Shown here: one piece after another, positions 20,903 through 35,317 of the stretch
How positions within the stretch are numbered: position 1 is the first letter of the stretch
Layout of the letters: each line of letters opens with the position of its first letter
Assembly (NCBI RefSeq): GCF_000517085.1
Contig: NZ_KI912107.1
Location: 3,965,980 to 4,029,979 of the forward strand
DNA: 64,000 bases
Direction: 5' to 3'
DNA from: Saccharicrinis fermentans DSM 9555 = JCM 21142
GTDB lineage: Bacteria > Bacteroidota > Bacteroidia > Bacteroidales > Marinilabiliaceae
Program-made: the position numbers and the translations under genes
The notes under the pieces: generated by a model
What the model was told of the DNA's origin: nothing
Database searches by the model: none
What the model saw: the letters and a program-made list of their open reading frames with translations, nothing else

Positions 20903-22570
20903 ATGCACAACAACTTAGACACCAACTTACTTAAAATAGAAAATTGGTTAAAAAATAAATCCAATTATATATTTTACATCTTATTGTTTTTTTACATGCT
21001 GTTCAGTTTATTATATTTCAATATTAAACCCAGCATTGCAGGTGATGATTCATCCTATATCATACGAGCCATCCATTTTTTAGAATCCGATAAATTCCCA
21101 ACCTACCAAGGCCCGCTTTATCCACTTTTTTTATCCCTGATAATATGGATTACCGGCATGAACCTAGTGATACTAAAACTGACATCAACCGTCTTTATGA
21201 TTGGTTTTATTATCCTCTTTTACAAGAATTTTAAAAACAAGATATCATATATCTCCTTATTCTATACAATTGGCATCTTAAGTACCAGCAACTATTTCTT
21301 GTATTTCTCAAGTCAAACCTATTCCGAAGCATTTTTTATTTTTCTGCAGAGCATCTTTTTTTACCTTGTTTTCAAAGGGATAACACACAAAAGCAGTTCT
21401 TGGAAACCAAACACAAAGGAGGTCTGTCTGATAGTCCTTACCGCCTTGCTCTGTGTAGTTCTATTCCTGACCAGAACAGTTGGCTTTGGCGCGATCTTAG
21501 CCATCACTGTTTTTTATATACTACAAAAACAATATGCCAGAACCTTTTATATTACAGTTGTATTTACAGCTATGCTCGTTTCCTTCTTCACTATCAGAGC
21601 CTCTGCTTGGGATATTCCGGCTAGATCAGGAGAACAATCATTACAATTACTCCAGAAAGATCCATATAACAAATCAAAAGGCAAAGAGGATCTCAAAGGG
21701 TTTCTAATACGCTTCAAGGACAATTCGAACCTTTATCTTTCGAAACATTTAATGCACATTACAGGCCTAACATCAAGCTCAGATAGAAAGACGCGTCCTG
21801 TCCTCACCCTTATTTTATATATTATTTTTGCACTTGGTATTGTTGTTTTTGCACGAAAAAGCAAGCCACTATTCTTCACTGCCATTTATCTGGCCATCAT
21901 GCTAGGCATTACTTTTTTTTCTTTACAAAAAAAATGGGATCAATACCGACTAATCATCCCTTTTGTTCCCATGGCATTACTTATGCTTAGCGAGAGTTTG
22001 ATTTTACCTAAAAAAGGGAGAAAGTGGCAATTTGTTAATAACCTATTTATCACAGTACTCGTCATTTCCTTGGCCTTATCCACGAATCATAGTTTTAAAA
22101 CCGTAGATACTACTACATTACAAAAAAATTTAAAGGGCGACAAGCTGTACGGATATACCCCTGATTGGATCAATTACTTAAAAATGGCCGAATACTGCCA
22201 TAATGAGTTAGACCCCCAAAGTTTTGTTGCATGCAGAAAGCCCAATATGGCCTGTATATATGGCAAGGGGAAAAAGTTCCACGGTATTTATCGCATACCG
22301 TCAAAAGAAGCAGACGAGTTAGTTCAATACCTAAAAAAACGAAATATTAGCCACGTGATGATGGCAAGCCTAAGAAAAAATCCTAAAATGTACACCGGAC
22401 AATCTATCAATACTATACAACGCTTTCTAAGTGTCATCTTAAAGAAATATCCAAACTCAATAAAGGTGGTTAAAAGATTTGGAACACAGGAACCTACCTA
22501 CTTATTTAAAATAAACTACGCAGCAATGCAAGCTGAAAACAATACAACAAACAATGAGCATATACAGTAG
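20903..22570 (+). CDS. GT-C fold membrane glycosyltransferase (GT39/ArnT-like)
   Basis: 555 residues with about 10-12 membrane helices and a C-terminal extramembrane domain. The first periplasmic loop holds an acidic pair (IAGDDSSYIIRA), as in GT-C enzymes that take sugars from polyprenyl-phosphate donors. SSQTYSEAFFIF and QGPLYPLFLSLIIWITG fit the family. It overlaps the next gene by 17 nt. That gene encodes a polyprenyl-phosphate-sugar-synthase-like GT2, so the pair probably makes and uses a lipid-linked sugar. The acceptor is unknown. Confidence 0.65.
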   Translation: MHNNLDTNLLKIENWLKNKSNYIFYILLFFYMLFSLLYFNIKPSIAGDDSSYIIRAIHFLESDKFPTYQGPLYPLFLSLIIWITGMNLVILKLTSTVFMIGFIILFYKNFKNKISYISLFYTIGILSTSNYFLYFSSQTYSEAFFIFLQSIFFYLVFKGITHKSSSWKPNTKEVCLIVLTALLCVVLFLTRTVGFGAILAITVFYILQKQYARTFYITVVFTAMLVSFFTIRASAWDIPARSGEQSLQLLQKDPYNKSKGKEDLKGFLIRFKDNSNLYLSKHLMHITGLTSSSDRKTRPVLTLILYIIFALGIVVFARKSKPLFFTAIYLAIMLGITFFSLQKKWDQYRLIIPFVPMALLMLSESLILPKKGRKWQFVNNLFITVLVISLALSTNHSFKTVDTTTLQKNLKGDKLYGYTPDWINYLKMAEYCHNELDPQSFVACRKPNMACIYGKGKKFHGIYRIPSKEADELVQYLKKRNISHVMMASLRKNPKMYTGQSINTIQRFLSVILKKYPNSIKVVKRFGTQEPTYLFKINYAAMQAENNTTNNEHIQ

Positions 22571-23987
22571 TCGTGAAATAAAAAATTATTGGGATGACTT
22601 TTCGGAAAAATGGATTAAATACCGAAAAAAGAGGTCATACTATTGGAACTCTATTTCCAAATACTGCAATTATTTCATTCATCCCGACTGTTCTATATTA
22701 GAGGTAGGGTGCGGACAAGGCGACCTCCTGGACTCCATCAATGGAAAAGACAAAACAGGCATTGATTTTTCACCTAAGATGATAGAGATAGGGAGAAACA
22801 GGTACCCACACATACAGTTCCATGAAATGGCAGCTGAAAACATCACCTTGGACAAAAAATACGATGTCATTATCCTATCCAACATCATAGGGGTGCTACC
22901 TGATGTAGAATCTGTATTTTTACAACTGGCACATGTCGCCCACGAAAAAACACGCATCATAGTAACCTATTACAACCGTATGTGGGAACCCTTTATCCGC
23001 TTCGCTGAAATCATCGGAGTCAAAAGACGCTCTCCACGACAGAATTGGCTATCGTCCAACGACATACAAAACCTACTCTACCTTTCTGGTTTTGAATCCT
23101 ACAAGGAAAACAGAAGTATGTTACTCCCCTATTACATACCACTGATATCGCCCTTTATGAATCGTTTTTTGAGCCGCTTGCCATTATTTAATAAGATGGG
23201 ACTGAACCAATTTGTTTTTGCCCGTCCTATTCCCCAAACGATCTCCTCCAAAAAACTGGATCAAAAATACACCACAACAGTAGTTATTCCGGCCAGAAAC
23301 GAGACCAAGAATATTGAACACGCCATAGCCCGGATGCCTCAGTTTGGCAAATCCATTGAAATCATATTTGTAGAAGGCAACTCAACCGACGACACGTGGG
23401 AAGCAATTAAAAGCGTTCAGGAGAAATACAAGTCATCGCATAATATCAGAATCATGCAGCAAGACGGCAAAGGTAAGGGCGATGCTGTAAGAAAAGGATT
23501 TGAGCACGCCACCGGAGATATCCTGATGATACTCGATGCCGACCTAACCGTACCACCCGAAGACCTACCTAAGTTTTATAATGCAATCAGTGCGGGCAAA
23601 GGAGAATTCATCAATGGGGTTAGATTGGTATACCCCATGGAGAAACACGCCATGCGCCCCTTAAATACCATTGGCAATCATTTCTTCAGCAAGTTCTTCA
23701 CCTATATATTGGAACGTCCCATCAAAGATACCTTATGCGGAACAAAGGTGATGTTCAGATCCGACTATCAAAAACTAGCTGCCAATAGAAAGTTCTTTGG
23801 TGAATTTGACCCCTTTGGTGATTTTGACCTATTATTTGGAGCCTATAAATTAAACCTAAAGATCATTGACCTTCCCATTCGATACCGCGAAAGAAAATAT
23901 GGAGATACGAACATAAGTCGCTTTAAACATGGCATCATTCTACTCCGCATGGTGACCTTTGCCACATTTAAAATTAAGTTTTGGTAA
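22554..23987 (+). CDS. Fusion of SAM methyltransferase and GT2 (dolichyl-phosphate-sugar synthase-like) glycosyltransferase
   Basis: 477 residues. Residues 1-215 are a class I methyltransferase with SAM motif I ILEVGCGQGDLL and TGIDFSPKM. Residues 228-477 are a GT2 domain (TTVVIPARNETKNIEHAI, GKGDAVRKGFEHATGD, and the metal-binding ILDADLTVPPEDL) most like polyprenyl-phosphate mannose/glucose synthases without a membrane anchor. The two are usually separate proteins. The gene overlaps the GT-C gene, supporting a shared pathway in lipid-linked sugar transfer. The methyl acceptor is unknown. Confidence 0.8.
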   Translation: MSIYSSREIKNYWDDFSEKWIKYRKKRSYYWNSISKYCNYFIHPDCSILEVGCGQGDLLDSINGKDKTGIDFSPKMIEIGRNRYPHIQFHEMAAENITLDKKYDVIILSNIIGVLPDVESVFLQLAHVAHEKTRIIVTYYNRMWEPFIRFAEIIGVKRRSPRQNWLSSNDIQNLLYLSGFESYKENRSMLLPYYIPLISPFMNRFLSRLPLFNKMGLNQFVFARPIPQTISSKKLDQKYTTTVVIPARNETKNIEHAIARMPQFGKSIEIIFVEGNSTDDTWEAIKSVQEKYKSSHNIRIMQQDGKGKGDAVRKGFEHATGDILMILDADLTVPPEDLPKFYNAISAGKGEFINGVRLVYPMEKHAMRPLNTIGNHFFSKFFTYILERPIKDTLCGTKVMFRSDYQKLAANRKFFGEFDPFGDFDLLFGAYKLNLKIIDLPIRYRERKYGDTNISRFKHGIILLRMVTFATFKIKFW

Positions 23988-26305: not shown

Positions 26306-26520
26306 AGATCATACATCGCTTTTTCCACAAGAAAAATAGCTATTTTTGTACTATTTGATAACATCCGTCATTTACTCACTCACTATATTTTTGCATTTTC
26401 TTTTTTCATAGAAAAAAAAGAAAATAAAATGACAATAGTAGAACCATTTCACTAAAACATTAGTATATAATGGTATGAATTAAAATCAGACAAATGACCA
26501 TAGTATCTAATATTAAACCA

Positions 26521-28782
26521 ATGAAACCTTTTCTATTTATACTTATATTCATATGTACTCTACTCTCTAACAGCGCTTTTGCTGAAGACCCCCCAAAACC
26601 AACAGCAACCATTACCAGTGAAGATTTATATTTTTGCGAATCGGCAGAGATCATTCTTAAAGTAAAGTTTACAGGAGCCCCTCCTTTTTCTTTTCAGTAC
26701 AAAGTAGGCCCTGCAACGAGTACATCTGCTTCTACAAGTGAATATGAATTTAACTTTCCTTTCTCCAACATTACAGAAAACACCACATTTGAGCTATTAA
26801 AAGTATATGATAAGAATTACCCTACTTCTGGCGAGGGTTCAACGGAGGTGTCCGGCACCCTTAACATCTTTATTGATCAAAAACCAACCATTGAAGCCGG
26901 CGGTGACATTGTTCTCTGCGGATATGAATACACAATGGACGCAAAGGTAACAGGCACTACCACCAAAGTATGGTGGAGCGATCCGGTTTCGGGAGCTGTT
27001 TTTGGAGATAATACTTCACCCACTTCGTCATTTAAGGCCACTACTCCCGGCACTTATACCCTCCGGTTAAATGCAGAAAACCGCGCATGTAATGATGCAT
27101 TATACGATGAGGTACAAGTAACATTGAACGGGCGCCCCAAAGGAACCATTGGTGACATCAGCGATTGGACCTTTTGCTCAAACGATGGAGCCACACACTC
27201 CATTCCTCTGAACTTAAAATTTGAAGGTAATGGTGATTTTAACTACACCCTTAAAAATGATGCAGGCACCACCAAAGGAACTTTTATAACAAGCGAATCA
27301 GAAAGCAATATCACGCTGCCTGTATCTGAATCTGAAACCATACTATTCCAATCCATCGAAGATAGCAATGGCTGCAAGGCCGATGATACAGATATGATAG
27401 GACAACGAAAAGCTATTGATATTAAACCAGACACAAAAGCCGGACCAGATCACATTACTCCACCCAACTGTGGCAGCACCATCACACTGGAAGCTGAACC
27501 CAGTGTGGGAGCAACCGGACAATGGCAAGCGTTGGCTTCAGATGTTGACTTTGCCGACAATACACAAGCCAACACAGTAGCTACAATCAGCTTTGAAGAA
27601 GGAGAAATAGAAAAAACGGCATCCCTACAGTGGACAGAAACAGTAACAACAACCGAAGGTTTTGAGTGTTCCGATTCTGACGAGGTGCAAATCAAATTTA
27701 TAAAAAAACCCACTCTTGCCATCAACTCCACTATGAACCAAGAGATATGCGAAGATAAAACCACCACCATTGATCTTACTTTAAAAGGCCATAGCCCTTT
27801 CAACCTAACATATGAAATAGATGGAAACAAAAAAACAATTCCTTTAACCTCCACTGGTACAAACTTAACGTTCCAACGCCCCGAATTATCCCTTGAAAAC
27901 AACACCATAAATTTCAGTGAAATAGAAGACAACTATGGCTGCATCACCAATATTGATCTATCACAGGACGTATGGGTCTATGAAATGCCTACAGCCAATG
28001 CCGGACCCGACATAGACACATGTGGTTTAAGCGTAGACCTACTCGCTGTGCAACAATACGAAGACAGCAAATGGTTATACAGTCAAGGAACTTTTGATGA
28101 TATACGAAACCCACACGCTCAATTTACGGCTAACAATACCGGAACCTTAGATTTAATATGGAAAGAAACCAACGGAAGCTGTACAGACACCGACACTGTT
28201 AAGGTAAGCTTTTTTGGCACCCCCTATCCGGTCAAGGAAGTGACGGACACTGTTATTTACGCTTCAAAATACATCATTCTGCCAGCCGATAGTCTACAAG
28301 TTGGAACAGGGCAGTGGAGCATTATTGAGCCTGCTGTTAGCGGAGCTATTTTTGAAGACGCCAGTTTATACCGATCAAAATTTTACAATTTCAACACAGG
28401 TGAGTATTATCACCTTCAGTGGAAGGCAACTCTAGCCTCAGCACCAGAAGCATGCCGGGAGAAAACACACAATGTTTATATAAAAACAAATTCACTTTTG
28501 GCACCCACAGGCATATCTCCCAACGATGACGGAGCCAATGATGTATTAAAAATTATGGGAGCCGAAAATATCCCTAACAATAAACTATCCATATTCGACA
28601 AAAACGGCAAACAAGTAATTTCCATCACCAACTACGGAGCATGGGATCAAAGCAAAGGAGAATTCAAACGATGGCCCGACAAGAAGTTTGGGTATGAAAT
28701 TCCAAAGCCGGGAATATATCTTTATGTATTTGAAGGAGATGGCATCTCCACAGTCAAAAACTATATCACAGTCAAATACTAG
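26521..28782 (+). CDS. T9SS type B cargo protein with CHU_C (gliding-motility-associated) C-terminal domain
   Basis: 753 residues. Signal peptide 1-21 (ending NSAFA) precedes repeated Ig/PKD-like beta modules with recurring Cys-containing starts (DLYFCESAEI, DIVLCGYEYTM, NQEICEDKTTTI, GPDIDTCGLSVDL). The last 90 residues are the type B sorting domain: APTGISPNDDGANDVLKI, then YNLxIFD-like KLSIFDKNGKQV, and PGIYLYVFEG near the end. Such proteins cross the outer membrane by T9SS and usually need a PorP/SprF partner, which is the next gene. The ATG at 26521 begins the signal. Adhesin or surface-structure role is inferred. Confidence 0.85.
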   Translation: MKPFLFILIFICTLLSNSAFAEDPPKPTATITSEDLYFCESAEIILKVKFTGAPPFSFQYKVGPATSTSASTSEYEFNFPFSNITENTTFELLKVYDKNYPTSGEGSTEVSGTLNIFIDQKPTIEAGGDIVLCGYEYTMDAKVTGTTTKVWWSDPVSGAVFGDNTSPTSSFKATTPGTYTLRLNAENRACNDALYDEVQVTLNGRPKGTIGDISDWTFCSNDGATHSIPLNLKFEGNGDFNYTLKNDAGTTKGTFITSESESNITLPVSESETILFQSIEDSNGCKADDTDMIGQRKAIDIKPDTKAGPDHITPPNCGSTITLEAEPSVGATGQWQALASDVDFADNTQANTVATISFEEGEIEKTASLQWTETVTTTEGFECSDSDEVQIKFIKKPTLAINSTMNQEICEDKTTTIDLTLKGHSPFNLTYEIDGNKKTIPLTSTGTNLTFQRPELSLENNTINFSEIEDNYGCITNIDLSQDVWVYEMPTANAGPDIDTCGLSVDLLAVQQYEDSKWLYSQGTFDDIRNPHAQFTANNTGTLDLIWKETNGSCTDTDTVKVSFFGTPYPVKEVTDTVIYASKYIILPADSLQVGTGQWSIIEPAVSGAIFEDASLYRSKFYNFNTGEYYHLQWKATLASAPEACREKTHNVYIKTNSLLAPTGISPNDDGANDVLKIMGAENIPNNKLSIFDKNGKQVISITNYGAWDQSKGEFKRWPDKKFGYEIPKPGIYLYVFEGDGISTVKNYITVKY

Positions 28783-28800
28783 ATTTACACAAGCAACACA

Positions 28801-29712
28801 ATGAAACAGATTAGCCTAACAATAATGATCCTGATCACTCTGACAGTTTCAGCAACTGCGCAGAAAGAGCTGATTATGAGTCAATACATGCACAACAAAT
28901 ACAGTATCAACGCGGCTTTTGGAGGATCACACGAGACCCTTTCAGCCTACGCTTCCTATCGAAAAAAATATGCAAGCTTCGAAAATTCACCGTCTGGAGG
29001 ACTTTTTACGGTCAACAGCCCTCTTAAAAATGAAAAGTTAGCTTTAGGATTTCAGTTTTTCAATGATCAATTTATCTCTTCGCAAAATACCGGCTTTAAT
29101 ATTTCATATACCTACCGCATACAGCTCAACAAAGAAACTAAGCTGGGTCTAGGAATATCAGCAGGCATGATCAACTACAAATATGACTGGAACGATGTTC
29201 TGCTAGTCGATAAAGTCGATATAGAATTTAGTCATAGCGAACAAACAATGGCTCCATGGATTGGCTTTGGTGCCGCCATTTATCACGACAAATATTATGC
29301 AGGACTATCAATACCTTCCCTGTTATACTACGACAGGTTTGGAAGCGAAGAAAGCACACTAGAACATACAAAAATAGACTATTTATGGACAGCTGGATAC
29401 ATCTATAAAATAAGTGATCACTTCACCCTGCAGCCATCCATATTCGTCCGATTAAATATGGATGATGAAACTTTTGCCGATATAAGTGCTACCACATTTA
29501 TAATGCGTTCCGTGATATTAGGAGCCTCCTATCGTACCACCCATCAAATCATCGGTGTTGCCGGGGTTCAAATATCCCCGCAATTCAGGTGTACCTACAG
29601 TTACGATTATAACACTGACCCCATTGGCTCCTATAACGGAGGAACACATGAGGTAGCTTTACAATTCAACTTTGGTTTCAAAGTCAACTCACCTGATCCA
29701 AAATTCTTTTAA
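28801..29712 (+). CDS. PorP/SprF family outer-membrane protein
   Basis: 303 residues. A signal peptide (ending TVSATA, mature start QKELIMSQYMHNKYSINAAF) is followed by amphipathic beta strands typical of a 12-14 strand barrel. The N-terminal MSQYMxNxxxINPAxxG-like segment and the closing HEVALQFNFGFK strand are hallmarks of PorP/SprF. Family members assist surface presentation of their neighbouring type B T9SS cargo, here the CHU_C protein 18 bp upstream. The next gene starts 2 bp after its stop. Confidence 0.87.
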   Translation: MKQISLTIMILITLTVSATAQKELIMSQYMHNKYSINAAFGGSHETLSAYASYRKKYASFENSPSGGLFTVNSPLKNEKLALGFQFFNDQFISSQNTGFNISYTYRIQLNKETKLGLGISAGMINYKYDWNDVLLVDKVDIEFSHSEQTMAPWIGFGAAIYHDKYYAGLSIPSLLYYDRFGSEESTLEHTKIDYLWTAGYIYKISDHFTLQPSIFVRLNMDDETFADISATTFIMRSVILGASYRTTHQIIGVAGVQISPQFRCTYSYDYNTDPIGSYNGGTHEVALQFNFGFKVNSPDPKFF

Positions 29713-29714
29713 GC

Positions 29715-31127
29715 ATGCTTACACATAAATCAACATATCTTATCACGCTTGCATTAGTAGCAATACTAAATATTTCGGTCTACTCCCAAGAAATTAACAT
29801 AGTAAACCTAGAAACAAACAGTGCATCAAAAAATGATTTTGCCCCTTTCGTAAAAGATTCCATACTATATTTCACTACAAACAGAAAACACGAACTAATA
29901 AAAACCTACCTCAACCGAGATAATGAGTGGGTTTATCGCTTATACAAATCAGATATTTTACCCAACGAAGCACAAGCGAAGGAGACACCCCTTCAAAACC
30001 CTCAGCTTTCTAAGCTAAATACCGCTTCCATCTGCTGGTCAGCTGATACCTCAACAATTGTAATTACACAAAACCAATACAGCACCGTTAAACGGAGTAA
30101 AGGAAGACAAAATCTTTTGGGCATATTCTTCATCACCAATAAAAAGGGTGAATGGAGCAGACCTTCCGCATTCAAATATAATTCCCGAAGGAACTATTCC
30201 AATGTACACCCCACCATCACACCCGACGGAAAAACCATCTATTTTGTTTCAGACAAACCAGGTGGGATTGGGAAGGCAGATATATATGAATCATCTTTGG
30301 TAAACGGAGAATGGACCGAACCTGTGAATTTGGGCAGAAAAGTCAATACAGAAGGAAACGAAGTTTTTCCCTTTTATCATTCGTCGGGCAAGCTATATTT
30401 TTCTTCAGAAGGGCACAACAGCACGGGCAAGCTAGATATCTTTTACACTTCCAAGAACAATGGCGTCTGGAGTGCACCAATAAAATTGGAATATCCCATC
30501 AACACTGAGAGCAACGATTTTTCATGCTACATCTACGATTCCCAGACCGAAGGCTATTTTGCATCCGACCGCACAGGAAATGCAGATATTTTCAAATTTA
30601 ATGACACCTATCCTAAGTTTCCGGATGCAAGTCCGCAAATTGAAGACAACTTTTGTTTTACCTTATTCGAAAATGGCCCCTACGTTTCAGATACCTTGCC
30701 TTACAAATACAAATGGAATTTTGGAGATGGAGCAACAGCAAACGGGCTCGAAGTGGACCATTGCTTTCCAGGACCCGGAAAATACCTGGTAGAATTAAAC
30801 GTAGTTGACACACTGGCCAACAAAGACCTATACACCGTTGCAAGCTACGAAGTAAACCTAGAACGCACCCCTCAAATATACATTACAGCTCCAGATACGG
30901 TCAATATTGGCACCTCTTTTCAGCTTAGCACAGATATATCAACACTCCAAGATTTCGTTCCTACGCAATATTTTTGGGACTTTGGAGACGGTAATAAAGC
31001 CAAAGGTGTAACTATTCATCATATTTTTCGAAAAAAGGGTATATACACAATTACTTGTGGTGCCATTTCAAAACTTGACCCTACAGATAAACGAAGTTCA
31101 ACACGACAGATTGTTGTCATAGAATAA
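29715..31127 (+). CDS. Exported PD40 beta-propeller protein with two PKD domains
   Basis: 470 residues with a signal peptide (1-24, ending VYS). Residues about 30-290 contain PD40 blades (HPTITPDGKTIYFVSDKPGG; SSGKLYFSSEGHNSTGKLDIFY). Two PKD-like modules follow, with KWNFGDGATANG and YFWDFGDGNKAKG. There is no OmpA or T9SS sorting domain at the C-terminus, so it probably stays in the periplasm or on the inner face of the outer membrane. Its blades resemble those of the 14.8-kb TPR/PD40 protein. It sits inside the T9SS cassette, 2 bp after porP/sprF. Confidence 0.72.
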   Translation: MLTHKSTYLITLALVAILNISVYSQEINIVNLETNSASKNDFAPFVKDSILYFTTNRKHELIKTYLNRDNEWVYRLYKSDILPNEAQAKETPLQNPQLSKLNTASICWSADTSTIVITQNQYSTVKRSKGRQNLLGIFFITNKKGEWSRPSAFKYNSRRNYSNVHPTITPDGKTIYFVSDKPGGIGKADIYESSLVNGEWTEPVNLGRKVNTEGNEVFPFYHSSGKLYFSSEGHNSTGKLDIFYTSKNNGVWSAPIKLEYPINTESNDFSCYIYDSQTEGYFASDRTGNADIFKFNDTYPKFPDASPQIEDNFCFTLFENGPYVSDTLPYKYKWNFGDGATANGLEVDHCFPGPGKYLVELNVVDTLANKDLYTVASYEVNLERTPQIYITAPDTVNIGTSFQLSTDISTLQDFVPTQYFWDFGDGNKAKGVTIHHIFRKKGIYTITCGAISKLDPTDKRSSTRQIVVIE

Positions 31128-31136
31128 TCAATACAC

Positions 31137-32114
31137 ATGCATAAATTAGCTATATTTTATACATTTATAATAATTTCGTTGAGTGCCAATGCCCAACCCG
31201 TACCAGCCATTGACGAGAACATACCCCACCTTGTTACATTTGGAAAAGATGGAGAATCAGCATGGGGCGACAACGATTATTGTCAGGTCATATTTTACTC
31301 CGTTCCGCAAGATCATACGGAACCCATTTTTATCAGGGTATATGACCCCGATACAGGAGGAGAGATAGATGAACAGAAAGGAGAATGGGATACCCGAATG
31401 AAATACAGTATTTATGGCGGAAAAAACGCCTGCTCTGCCAAGGATGCAAAGAATATTAATTTAAGTGGCAACTACAAAAGCGGCACATTATTAGGTACAA
31501 AATCCTTCACTGCCCATCCTAAATATGATCAAAAATGGTATACTTTCGGTCCCATTAACCCCACTGAAGGAGAGTTTTTACCGGACGAATATGGTGGCTA
31601 TGTATTTAAAATAATCATTGAAGGAATATCAGGTGATGACGGAAACCTATACAACTTATCTCTAAGCAACAAACCAACTGAAAACCAACCAGTAGAAGGG
31701 GCTTTTGCTTTTTATTACAAATATAAATTCAGATTACACGATAACGCTAACGAGATTTCCCATATCTATCCATTTATCGACGAAAATGTTCAATCAGTAA
31801 AACAATCCAACTTCGACTGGGATAACGACGGCATTATCAGAATCATCTCTGTGGCCAAAAATGGAGAGTTTATGAAAATTTCTGGCGATGACAACTGGGC
31901 CAATAGTCTGCATCAGGTTCACCCCTCAGAAAAAAACAAGTCGTACGATATTCAAATGATAAAAAAGAAAGGGGCAGATATCAAAAACAACAATGTAGTC
32001 ATATACCTAAAAAATCAATATGACGAACTAATTGAGTTTTACAGTGTTCCTATTGGAGGCATCCCAAAATACAAATACAGCATTGGAATGAAACCGAAAA
32101 CTATACATAACTAG
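31137..32114 (+). CDS. Exported protein of unknown function in the T9SS cassette
   Basis: 325 residues; I do not recognise a family. It has a signal peptide (1-19, ending ANA; mature start QPVPAIDEN). The N-terminal half is beta-rich with VIFYSVPQDHTEPIFIRVYD and acidic turns (DPDTGGEID), which may be a C2-like sandwich. The rest has FDWDNDGIIRIISVAKNGE and NNNVVIYLKNQYDE, again beta-sandwich-like. It lies 9 bp after the PD40-PKD gene and 8 bp before the propeller/SpoIIE gene, so it is surely part of the same operon. Confidence 0.6.
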   Translation: MHKLAIFYTFIIISLSANAQPVPAIDENIPHLVTFGKDGESAWGDNDYCQVIFYSVPQDHTEPIFIRVYDPDTGGEIDEQKGEWDTRMKYSIYGGKNACSAKDAKNINLSGNYKSGTLLGTKSFTAHPKYDQKWYTFGPINPTEGEFLPDEYGGYVFKIIIEGISGDDGNLYNLSLSNKPTENQPVEGAFAFYYKYKFRLHDNANEISHIYPFIDENVQSVKQSNFDWDNDGIIRIISVAKNGEFMKISGDDNWANSLHQVHPSEKNKSYDIQMIKKKGADIKNNNVVIYLKNQYDELIEFYSVPIGGIPKYKYSIGMKPKTIHN

Positions 32115-32122
32115 AGTGGGAT

Positions 32123-32416
32123 ATGACATACAGCGTTAAAAGGTTAACAACCCTACTAATTATCATTGTGCTATACAGTTGCAGCAATCACGCTACAGCT
32201 CAATCATTCAACTTTAAAAATTTTGATTCAGACATGGGTCTGCCGCAAAACTTTGTGTATTGCTTGGCACAGGATCACAATGGCTACCTTTGGATAGGCA
32301 CCGGCGAAGGTTTGGTGAGGTACGACGGTATCCACTTCAAGACCTATACACAAAGAGACTCTTTGTCTTCAGACTTTATTTACTCTTTATTTGTAGACCT
32401 GGATGGAATACTATAG
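32123..32416 (+). pseudogene. N-terminal fragment of the propeller/SpoIIE sensor, cut by an in-frame TAG
   Basis: 97 codons: an export signal (about 1-27, with a YSCSN lipobox-like segment) and the first regulator-propeller repeats (HNGYLWIGTGEGLVRYDG). It ends at TAG 32414-32416. The frame stays open for 36 codons before the next in-frame ATG at 32525. Restoring TGG gives ILWVGHNNG, the normal LWVG repeat motif, so a single G-to-A change explains the break. The whole gene would encode 1064 residues. Confidence 0.72.
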
Positions 32417-32524
32417 GTTGGACACAACAACGGTACATTATCCTACTTACAAGACGGCACCTTCCATAAAATAATACCCACCCCCAAAGCCACCAGTCGC
32501 ATCAACGACATCTGCCAGGATAAC

Positions 32525-35317
32525 ATGGGCAACATATGGGCAACCGTACAAAATAACGGCTTATTAAAGATCAACAAACAAAAGAATGTAACACCATATT
32601 TTCAAGCGGATATATTTGAGGATAAACTCTATTACTCAATAGAGTCCGTTGATCCATTCAACTTTTTAATGGGCACCTCTGAAGGTCTGATGCATTTGAA
32701 ACTGAATCAGAATGCAGAGATCACTTCTGTACATGAAATAGGAAATATTCCACCAGCTAAAATAAATACCATCGTAAAACGAAGAGCCATAGAAGGAGAA
32801 TACTGGATAGCTACCGAGGACGAAGGTTTCTACTTATTTCGCTATGATGAGCAAACAGCCAAACATTATGCCAACAACAACCTATGCATTAAATTTAATA
32901 TAGAATACGAAAATATATTAGATATTTACGAAGAAAAAGATGGCAATCTACTACTTGCCACCTGGGGGAACGGGGTTATCAAATTATTTTTAGATGCTGC
33001 AACACAAAGCTTCACCGAATCATTTAAATTCACCACTGAAAATGGCTTGAACCACGACTTCATTAGGGCCATCATAGGTGACCGAGAAGATAACTATTGG
33101 TTTGCCACCTACGGAGGCGGTGTTTCTGTATTACTCAGCGACTATTTTATCCATTATGACTTGGAGAGTATTGGCTTTAAACAAAGCAAGGCTAAATCAG
33201 TCATGGCCACCCATTCCAACCTATGGATAGGACTGGACAATGGCATATTGCACACCGATCCATTTTGTTTCACGGACCATGAATACTATGACAAAGCACT
33301 GGGAATACCCAACGACGAGATTACTGGCTTTGAATATGATTCAGATAGCACCTTTTGGGTAGCATCCTTTGAATCCGGGTTATACTTCAGAAAAAAAGGA
33401 GATTTAAGATTTAAAAAATATCCATACACCAAAGGAGTGAGCGAGCCAAAGATCAATGATATGGCTATTGTTAACCGAGATATTTTACTGGCAACCACTT
33501 CCGGTTTCTATCGCATAAACCCAACAACACCCAAAACAACCTTGTTAACCACTGAAAATCAACTACCACACAACAATATTAATTTCGTATTCATTGACGA
33601 TCAACAACAAATATGGATAGGACCCAAATCCAGTGGCATCTGCCTACTGGACAGCACAAGCATTGAAGTTCACAGACTTTCTAAATCACCATTGGATGTT
33701 TCAGGTATGACCACAGACTCCAAAGGGAACTTTTGGTTGTCGACCATTGGTAAGGGAGTATTAAAGTACAATCAAGACACTTTGATGGCCATCGATATTT
33801 CAGATGGACTTACCAAAAACTACTGCTACGATATTGTATGTGACAAAAATGACAGACTCTGGATTGCACACCAACCAGGTATCAGTACCATCGACCTAAA
33901 CACAAAACAAATCAGAACCTTTGGCTTTAAAGAAGACATGGGCGGTGATTTTTATGATATATGGAAAGATAAAGAAGAAAACATATGGTTTGCATCCAGT
34001 AATGGTATCATTAAATACTTTCCGGACAGAGACAAGAAAAATACGGTTCCGCCTAAAATTAACCTCAATAAAGCAAATGTATCTGGTATCAATTACCCCT
34101 TGAACAAACCCATTCAGCTGCCATATCCTTACAATAGGAGGTATGCTAAATTCAGATTTGATTTCACTGGCATCAGCTTTAAGGACCCCCTAGGCGTGAG
34201 CTACCAATACAAATTAATTAGAAATGACAACGAGGAATCCCAATGGATCGACCTAGGAACCACTAATTTTAAGGAATACGAATTTTTGCCTGACGGTAAA
34301 TACGACTTAAAAATTCGCGCATTTAATGCCGATGGTGTACCCAACAATAACCCTCTGTCAATTAGAATAGAAATTGCTGAACCCATATGGAAAAAATGGT
34401 GGTTTTACCTCGTTTTAATCTCTCTACTGGGGTTAATATTCTATTGGATTATCAAAATCAGGGAACGAAAGTTAAGGATGCAAAAAGAGGCATTACAACG
34501 AGAAGTAAATTCACAAACCATAGTTCTGCGAGAACAAAAAGATGAAATACAGCGTAAAAATAAAGACATTACAGCTAGCATTAATTACGCCAAGCGTATT
34601 CAAAGCTCTATCCTACCACCGGTGAACGAACTAAAAAATTCCTTTGCTCAATCATTCATATTCTTTGCTCCTAGAGATATTGTAAGTGGTGACTTTTATT
34701 GGTTTAGCAAGAATAAAAATAAATTCTTATTATGCTGCGCTGATTGCACCGGACATGGTGTTCCCGGCGCTTTCATGTCAATGATTGGAACTACCTTACT
34801 CAACGATATTAACAAAACAGAAAAAGTACAATCTCCCGCTGATATTCTTGAAAAACTAGATAGCAACATTAAAGTATTACTTCAAAAAGAAAATAGTGAG
34901 AATGCTAAAGACGGAATGGACATCTCGGTGATTGAGATTGATGTAAACACCCACAAAGTGAGAATCGCCTCTGCCAAGCGACCTGTATTTGTATATATCA
35001 ACAATGAACTATCCATATACAACGGAACAAGGAGAAGCATAGGCGATGATGCACTTACTCAAAAATCTAAATTCTTAAATTACGAATACAATTGTTCCAA
35101 AGGAGACTCCATTTACTTGTTCTCAGATGGCTATACCGACCAATTTGGAGGTCCCAAAGGCAAAAAAATAATGAAGGTAGGTGTCAAGAACCTACTGGAA
35201 GAAATACGTAAAAAACCAATGGACAGTCAAGGTAAAATTATTAAAGAATATTTTAATAATTGGAAAGGAGACCTGGAACAAATAGACGACGTATTATTCA
35301 TGGGGATAAAACTCTAA
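32525..35317 (+). CDS. Two-component-type propeller, Y_Y_Y and SpoIIE (PP2C) phosphatase protein, downstream part
   Basis: 930 codons. Many Reg_prop blades (IWATVQNNGLLKI, WIATEDEGFYLF, IWIGPKSSGICLL) lead to a Y_Y_Y domain (KFRFDFTGISF...YEFLPDGKYDLKIRAFN), one membrane helix (WWFYLVLISLLGLIFYW) and a coiled coil. The SpoIIE-type phosphatase follows, with RDIVSGDFYWF, ADCTGHGVPGAFMSM, FSDGYTDQFGG and the terminal IDDVLFMG. The family senses an extracytoplasmic cue and dephosphorylates a cytoplasmic regulator. With the upstream TAG, it lacks its export signal. It is the last gene of the T9SS cassette, so it may control that cassette. Confidence 0.78.
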   Translation: MGNIWATVQNNGLLKINKQKNVTPYFQADIFEDKLYYSIESVDPFNFLMGTSEGLMHLKLNQNAEITSVHEIGNIPPAKINTIVKRRAIEGEYWIATEDEGFYLFRYDEQTAKHYANNNLCIKFNIEYENILDIYEEKDGNLLLATWGNGVIKLFLDAATQSFTESFKFTTENGLNHDFIRAIIGDREDNYWFATYGGGVSVLLSDYFIHYDLESIGFKQSKAKSVMATHSNLWIGLDNGILHTDPFCFTDHEYYDKALGIPNDEITGFEYDSDSTFWVASFESGLYFRKKGDLRFKKYPYTKGVSEPKINDMAIVNRDILLATTSGFYRINPTTPKTTLLTTENQLPHNNINFVFIDDQQQIWIGPKSSGICLLDSTSIEVHRLSKSPLDVSGMTTDSKGNFWLSTIGKGVLKYNQDTLMAIDISDGLTKNYCYDIVCDKNDRLWIAHQPGISTIDLNTKQIRTFGFKEDMGGDFYDIWKDKEENIWFASSNGIIKYFPDRDKKNTVPPKINLNKANVSGINYPLNKPIQLPYPYNRRYAKFRFDFTGISFKDPLGVSYQYKLIRNDNEESQWIDLGTTNFKEYEFLPDGKYDLKIRAFNADGVPNNNPLSIRIEIAEPIWKKWWFYLVLISLLGLIFYWIIKIRERKLRMQKEALQREVNSQTIVLREQKDEIQRKNKDITASINYAKRIQSSILPPVNELKNSFAQSFIFFAPRDIVSGDFYWFSKNKNKFLLCCADCTGHGVPGAFMSMIGTTLLNDINKTEKVQSPADILEKLDSNIKVLLQKENSENAKDGMDISVIEIDVNTHKVRIASAKRPVFVYINNELSIYNGTRRSIGDDALTQKSKFLNYEYNCSKGDSIYLFSDGYTDQFGGPKGKKIMKVGVKNLLEEIRKKPMDSQGKIIKEYFNNWKGDLEQIDDVLFMGIKL

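Follow-up and report, generated by a model that had tools for sequence, protein, structure and literature searches.

The window analysed here, a stretch of 64,000 nucleotides from Saccharicrinis fermentans DSM 9555 = JCM 21142, contains five same-strand genes (g1 to g5, plus strand) that fill positions 26521-35317 with gaps of 18, 2, 9 and 8 bp, and our reading of the open reading frames confirms the positions and the 2-18 bp spacing given in the original prediction. The domains named there were matched in Pfam as well, namely CHU_C in g1, PorP_SprF in g2, PD40 and two PKD domains in g3, and Reg_prop, Y_Y_Y and SpoIIE in g5, with nothing for g4. The first gene, g1 (26521..28782; alternative in-frame ATG at 26494, 27 bp upstream), encodes a type B T9SS cargo of 753 aa with Ig-like repeats and a C-terminal CHU_C domain at residues 662-750 (PF13585, 50.2 bits, cut-off 27); against the NCBIfam type B model TIGR04131 it scores 30.2 bits, under the cut-off of 35. 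Directly downstream, across the 18-bp gap, lies g2 (28801..29712), a PorP/SprF-family outer-membrane shuttle or anchor of 303 aa (PF11751, 186.8 bits; TIGR03519, 215.2 bits, cut-off 90.55), and judged by sequence the two appear to be a standard cargo/shuttle pair. The 5.98-Mb genome around the window (G000:C3) has the SprA translocon (TIGR04189, 2694.9 bits), which is uninformative, being present in 38 of 38 g4-positive and 240 of 257 g4-negative genomes (p 0.14). A second pair of PorP and PD40-PKD genes (725-aa frame, 480 bits) lies outside the window at G000:C3:263163-265479, and the window copy of g4 is the sole match of this genome in a protein search. Within the window, two genes at 20903-23987, read from the sequence as a large membrane protein and a methyltransferase/glycosyltransferase-like protein, form a pair that also precedes the cassette in 10 to 11 loci among the best 80 of at least 408 g4 matches.

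The third gene, g3 (29715..31127), encodes an exported protein of 470 aa with a PD40 beta-propeller followed by two PKD domains and without an OmpA domain (Pfam). Its AlphaFold model (pLDDT 88.2, pTM 0.68) has its best Foldseek match in 1l0q, a propeller plus PKD, and by analogy g3 seems to fit the place of PorE, propeller first. We rejected g3 as a true PorE on scores below the NCBIfam cut-offs (146.4 against 600 bits for NF052230, PorE; 194 of the 620 bits needed for NF053607, CHU_0125_OmpA) and on the OmpA peptidoglycan-binding C-terminus, which Pfam did not find in the window protein. A C-terminal OmpA domain is carried by g3 relatives in four loci (L138, L146, L180 and L202) and ties g3 to PorE-like anchors. 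According to two reports (PMC9143113, PMC12618676), the type B cargo PG1035 of P. gingivalis is held by PorP, to which PorE binds, and in five F. johnsoniae operons a cargo gene is combined with an SprF-like and a PorE-like gene, an arrangement proposed to be static. Both arrangements resemble the cassette in combining a type B cargo, a dedicated PorP-family barrel and a propeller protein, and differ from it in that window g3 has PKD domains instead of TPR, CRD and OmpA and that g4 and g5 are extra.

A type B cargo with a PorP/SprF-family shuttle directly downstream is also the arrangement of SprB and SprF, a pair of the same class as g1 and g2, and the locus could on that ground be a gliding adhesin unit. 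According to PMC12635249, twin cysteines in the C-terminal tail of SprF link it to GldK. Unlike SprF, window g2 has a C-terminal tail without this motif, indeed without any cysteine, and the paired-cysteine motif is found in 0 of 67 g2 ortholog tails; four of the tails contain one or two cysteines within their final 45 residues. A role in gliding is therefore unlikely. The next gene of the cassette, moreover, encodes a propeller protein of PorE-like type, whereas mobile substrates have no PorE-like neighbour according to PMC12618676. We rejected the gliding unit on the missing twin-cysteine tail and regard it as highly improbable.

What kind of protein is g4? The gene (31137..32114) encodes an exported protein of 325 aa with a signal-like N-terminus, as read from the sequence. 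The original prediction had described it as an unknown beta-rich exported protein. Neither Pfam nor NCBIfam nor the PDB sequences gave a match, and the structural model (pLDDT 88.5, pTM 0.85) shows beta structure throughout except for short helices. Family members were aligned in two sets, A1 (39 rows) and A3 (81 rows), and a scan of 81 members gave scattered matches only (best E 0.012); a T9SS C-terminal signal was not found on g4. We read the model as two probable tandem sandwiches, at residues about 19-180 and 190-300. Foldseek returned a best E of 7e-5 but a TM below 0.3, no strong fold match, and the VIA search a best Z of 5.7 over 110 residues at an rmsd of 3.0, likewise weak. The rows concerned include PNGase F(-like) proteins, SIDT, the DeCLIC N-terminal domain, and CBM-like and collagen-binding modules; as matches of a predicted model, they would neither assign g4 a function nor show a new fold. 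The protein is the best-conserved member of the cassette, at 44-75% to the window over the order, with a best named match, among the matches listed, in Labilibacter marinus (80%), while the cargo g1 varies, at 21-40% to the window in matched parts.

The fifth gene was taken by the original prediction as a single gene, but it is not one open frame: a TAG at 32414-32416, which had been overlooked, splits the frame 32123-35317. The 5' piece (32123..32416; 97 codons) holds the signal sequence, read from the sequence, and the start of the first propeller. The 3' piece (32417..35317; 966 codons, first ATG at 32525), in which no signal sequence can be read, holds the remaining propellers, Y_Y_Y, a hydrophobic segment read as transmembrane and a SpoIIE-type phosphatase domain; the domains matched are Reg_prop, Y_Y_Y and SpoIIE (PF07228, 56.3 bits, cut-off 25). 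The phosphatase motifs GDFYW, AD.TGHG, DGMD, SDGY.DQFGG and EQIDD are present, and we take the conserved acidic motifs of this domain to be its metal site. A Pfam search of a 930-aa piece of g5 at E 0.1 gave no match to HisKA, receiver or HTH domains.

The stop raises a side question that stands apart from the mechanism, namely whether the sensor is a pseudogene in this strain and the unit may be decaying, which we consider possible at somewhat under an even chance. The TAG separates the signal sequence from the phosphatase part, and it is a genuine terminator elsewhere in the cassette; a reading as pyrrolysine was rejected, as no PylS match was found in the genome and TAG terminates g1 and g4. 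Of the 38 best g5 rows from 295 genomes of the order, the window's alone has an internal stop. Among the named relatives (the best 80 of at least 408 g4 matches), 71 offered enough sequence, and in 69 of these the g5 frame reaches at least 1000 aa; a residue is aligned at the TAG position in all 69 intact ones. The g5 frames of the other two, L109 and L117, are shortened, so that the window is not alone with a damaged g5, a point that again favours a pseudogene. Against it stand the 966 further codons that remain open, the retained catalytic motifs and an identity of 76% to Labilibacter marinus over 965 aligned codons, near the value for g4; dS in this comparison was saturated, precluding a dN/dS estimate. 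As far as its sequence indicates, the remainder of g5 shows no decay, and the stop would be either a recent loss or an assembly error, the latter also speaking against a pseudogene. One relative (L105:2793-6881; 1363 aa) has a g5 with extra PAS domains ahead of SpoIIE.

In its ectodomain g5 has a counterpart in the hybrid two-component sensors of Bacteroides (BT4663 type), which combine Reg_prop propellers and a Y_Y_Y sensor part with a kinase, receiver and AraC output. The Reg_prop and Y_Y_Y domains are shared with g5, whose output is a phosphatase instead. That PP2C/SpoIIE output domain is in turn shared with the SpoIIE/RsbU partner-switch phosphatases (PMC11418112) and SiaA (PMC7647112); the former paper describes bacterial SpoIIE/RsbU-class phosphatases as acting on STAS proteins. 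Unlike SiaA and RsbU, g5 has periplasmic propellers as its sensor and no STAS gene nearby, and it scores far below the cut-off of the NCBIfam SiaA model (192.3 against 700 bits). Six SpoIIE and four STAS matches were found in the genome around the window, and no link joins any of them to g5; two of the four STAS matches lie in frames of 112 and 118 aa, these small proteins being located at G000:C3 1518892 and 1631350, and none is near g5.

How far does the arrangement extend beyond this strain? A protein search found g4 in 38 of 295 genomes of the order, from 25 of 183 genera, in 44 rows, 38 of which were fetched as loci (left out were the window's own row, G007:C80, G168:C57, G279, G043:C68 and G043:C64). 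A g5 match adjoins g4 in all 38 fetched loci; g3 was found in 35 of them and g2 in 32, several of the missing g2 and g3 being accounted for by contig ends; the g5 matches of L061 (26%) and L064 (23%) are strongly diverged. Among the named relatives, for which the best 80 of at least 408 g4 matches were kept, the five-gene count covers the 58 loci whose sequence extends 6 kb or more upstream of g4 and 3.3 kb or more downstream of it. All five genes stand in order in 46 of these by tblastn, and in a further five a Pfam CHU_C cargo is in place (L119, L121, L122, L138 and L146; L138 had also failed the distance rule, its frames overlapping). The original prediction had proposed a unit with a built-in sensor, which a lack of synteny between the last two genes and the first three in relatives would contradict; the five occur in order in 51 of 58 loci, and the proposal is supported to that extent. 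The remaining seven comprise five loci with g4 and g5 only (L084, L089, L130, L144, L145) and two with g1 to g4 and another protein (L100, L106). In the same set of 80, g5 directly follows g4 in 71 of the 74 loci with enough flank, and L135, which has no g5, falls outside this flank limit. Median gaps among the relatives are 0, 4.5, 17.5 and 7.5 bp. The culturable relatives whose cassette is intact include Marinilabilia salmonicolor (L077) and Labilibacter marinus (L071).

We rejected mere background synteny as an explanation, since the flanking genes differ between groups; that the five-gene order recurs in many families with different flanks indicates more than chance. A coaD gene and a thioredoxin-like gene, for instance, lie upstream in 13 of the best 80 loci (of at least 408 matches). 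In 15 of the same 80 (L102, L111, L112, L114, L116, L120, L123, L124, L126, L127, L136, L141, L147, L148 and L149), a same-strand gene of 592-979 aa lies 62-671 bp upstream of g1; the seven of these genes that were scanned all encode a histidine kinase, and a kinase-type gene is a possible sixth member. One locus (L057) has two cargo/PorP pairs in the order g1 g2 g3 g1 g2 g4 g5. In three loci from metagenome-assembled genomes of horse faeces, an OMP_b-brl_3 barrel-type gene replaces g5 after g4 (L100:10700-13708, L106:10720-13647 and L110:1481-4420, the last outside the 58-locus count).

Co-occurrence across genomes was examined with profile searches, which scored two candidates per genome for g5 and five for g3. 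The g3 profile marks 37 of the 295 genomes at E 1e-85 or better, so that cassette-type g3 is present in 36 of 38 g4-positive and 1 of 257 g4-negative genomes (Fisher p 1e-42, kinship ignored); the g4-negative one is G270, and the g4-positive genomes without a g3 match are G131, in which g3 is cut by a contig end, and G279. For g5, 38 rows of 985-1562 bits occur in 35 of 38 g4-positive and 0 of 257 g4-negative genomes; the latter reach 879 bits at most, and the cassette g5 of G279 scores 829 bits, within the paralog range. Both profiles were built from cassettes, and the rank of cassette genes is therefore partly by construction, yet three cassettes outside the g5 profile build (G007:C80, G043:C68 and G168:C57) also rank on top. 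In seven genomes (G1009, G1010, G1011, G1012, G168 = G1013, G261 and G063), a g4-g5 pair lies by itself and g1, g2 and g3 are kept elsewhere, as triads with a PKD-type g3 (loci L195-L201); two copies of g4 are present in G168 and likewise in G1011, and for several g4 loci of the split genomes the contig reaches only 1.6-3.4 kb upstream. In two other genomes the set is different: G1015 has g1, g2 and a PD40-PKD-OmpA protein, and G1014 has g2 together with a CHU_C frame and a TPR/PD40/OmpA protein. The retention of all five genes even where they are physically split speaks most strongly for a joint function.

These distributions bear on the proposal that g4 serves the surface complex as a structural component or chaperone and that g5 is a general envelope sensor simply co-expressed in the operon. 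The four loci in which g4 occurs without an adjacent g5 (L100, L106, L110 and L135) would suit such a division of roles, but high-scoring g5 is restricted to g4-positive genomes among the 295 searched, and g4 and g5 stay together when they part from g1-g3; we consider this alternative quite unlikely.

Beyond the order, g4 was found in 49 of 395 genomes of a class sample and in 15 of 392 genomes of a phylum sample, 13 of the 15 being outside the class. In these 13 genomes it belongs to a long frame, roughly 990-1650 aa in length, nine of the matches being strong and four weak (E 2e-5 to 5e-4). PKD repeats follow the g4 head in all 14 fetched loci (L168-L179, L181 and L182), and a repeated search recovered the g4 part in 12 of them; the exceptions are L175, in which the analysed frame began too late, and L181, a weak match. 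The vicinity of the 14 fusions includes FecR-type proteins in seven loci (one of these scoring under the Pfam cut-off), histidine kinases in seven (that of L175 being a propeller kinase on the other strand) and receiver-SpoIIE phosphatases in four, these counts coming from 24 chosen proteins, none of them in L173, L174 or L176, and standing without a frequency control. Cyclase genes also lie near some of the fusions, and the scanned neighbours include unrelated proteins, a metal ATPase (L179) and a beta-lactamase-fold protein (L177). As PKD and SpoIIE domains are common, we treat the FecR, kinase and SpoIIE company of the fusions as a lead.

It is conceivable that g4 and g5 sense a ligand from outside or from the cell wall, with g4 as a binding protein, and only set the amount of g1, g2 and g3 without any physical chain between them. 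The g5 ectodomain, with Reg_prop and Y_Y_Y, has a plan that we liken to that of ligand-sensing hybrid two-component sensors, glycan- and collagen-binding modules appear among the weak structure rows of g4, and the two genes can sit apart from g1-g3. The strong conservation of g4 beside a varying cargo would, on the other hand, be odd for a ligand-specific sensor, and the fusion of g4 to PKD repeats favours a structural link. We regard this main alternative as unlikely, though less so than a structural or chaperone role of g4.

Our best explanation, to which we give a little less than an even chance, is a five-gene trans-envelope unit in which a static surface complex like that of PorE, PorP and PG1035 has g4 as its periplasmic adaptor and g5 as its dedicated sensor phosphatase in the inner membrane. 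From gene content and order, co-occurrence, retention after splitting, domain make-up and the open frames in relatives, we infer the following contacts, the localisation of g3 and g4, the phosphatase substrate and the direction of signalling. The cargo g1 would leave via the T9SS, and g2, the PorP-type shuttle that belongs to it, would hold it at the cell surface. The propeller of g3 would bind the periplasmic face of g2, as proposed for PorE, giving a static complex. As a soluble protein of the periplasm, g4 would connect the PKD modules of g3 with the propellers that g5 exposes there. The cytoplasmic PP2C/SpoIIE domain of g5 would dephosphorylate a partner, most likely a STAS-type protein, and in this way g5 would make gene expression depend on the condition of the surface complex. 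The original prediction's notion of a regulated surface assembly goes further, in that g5 would control g1 and g2, as opposed to reporting on them. With the sensor gene interrupted, the chain may be incomplete in this strain. We count several observations against this explanation: g4 can exist without an adjacent g5, as in the three loci with a barrel-type gene in its place and in L135; G270 has g3 without g4; the g5 of G279, L061 and L064 is diverged; the window has its stop; and none of the SpoIIE and STAS matches of the genome is tied to g5.

What is new in this arrangement? The original prediction, which took cargo and PorP/SprF pairs as known, had held the combination with the last two genes to be undescribed. 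The triad of cargo, PorP/SprF and PorE-like protein has been published (PMC9143113, PMC12618676); for the addition of g4 and g5, no description was found in the open-access literature searched. That literature yielded neither a T9SS or CHU_C-type cargo together with SpoIIE or a regulator propeller, nor the combination of a two-component regulator propeller with SpoIIE, and what would be new is g4 and the propeller-SpoIIE sensor as a fixed addition to a known triad. A precedent for surface-to-gene signalling by a CTD protein exists in P. gingivalis PorA, a CTD surface protein proposed to relay a surface signal to PorXY-SigP (PMC7712824). PorA resembles the proposed cassette as a CTD-bearing surface protein feeding a cytoplasmic regulator, and differs in acting via the PorXY two-component system, where the cassette encodes a SpoIIE phosphatase and an extra putative periplasmic protein with the cargo.

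We speculate, as a possibility that we ourselves rate as rather doubtful, that this is an undescribed form of trans-envelope signalling, in which a T9SS surface protein, a barrel, a propeller-PKD protein and a new adaptor family, g4, report the state of the complex to an inner-membrane propeller phosphatase, and which, with the second, PKD-joined form of g4, would make a g4-based surface-to-phosphatase pathway phylum-wide. Irrespective of its mechanism, g4 defines a strongly conserved protein family without an entry in the libraries searched. The literature examined contained no account of the monitoring of type B T9SS cargo after export; if our proposal is true, such post-export monitoring would be testable in culturable Marinilabiliaceae, and SpoIIE-type phosphatases would gain a role in T9SS surface biology.
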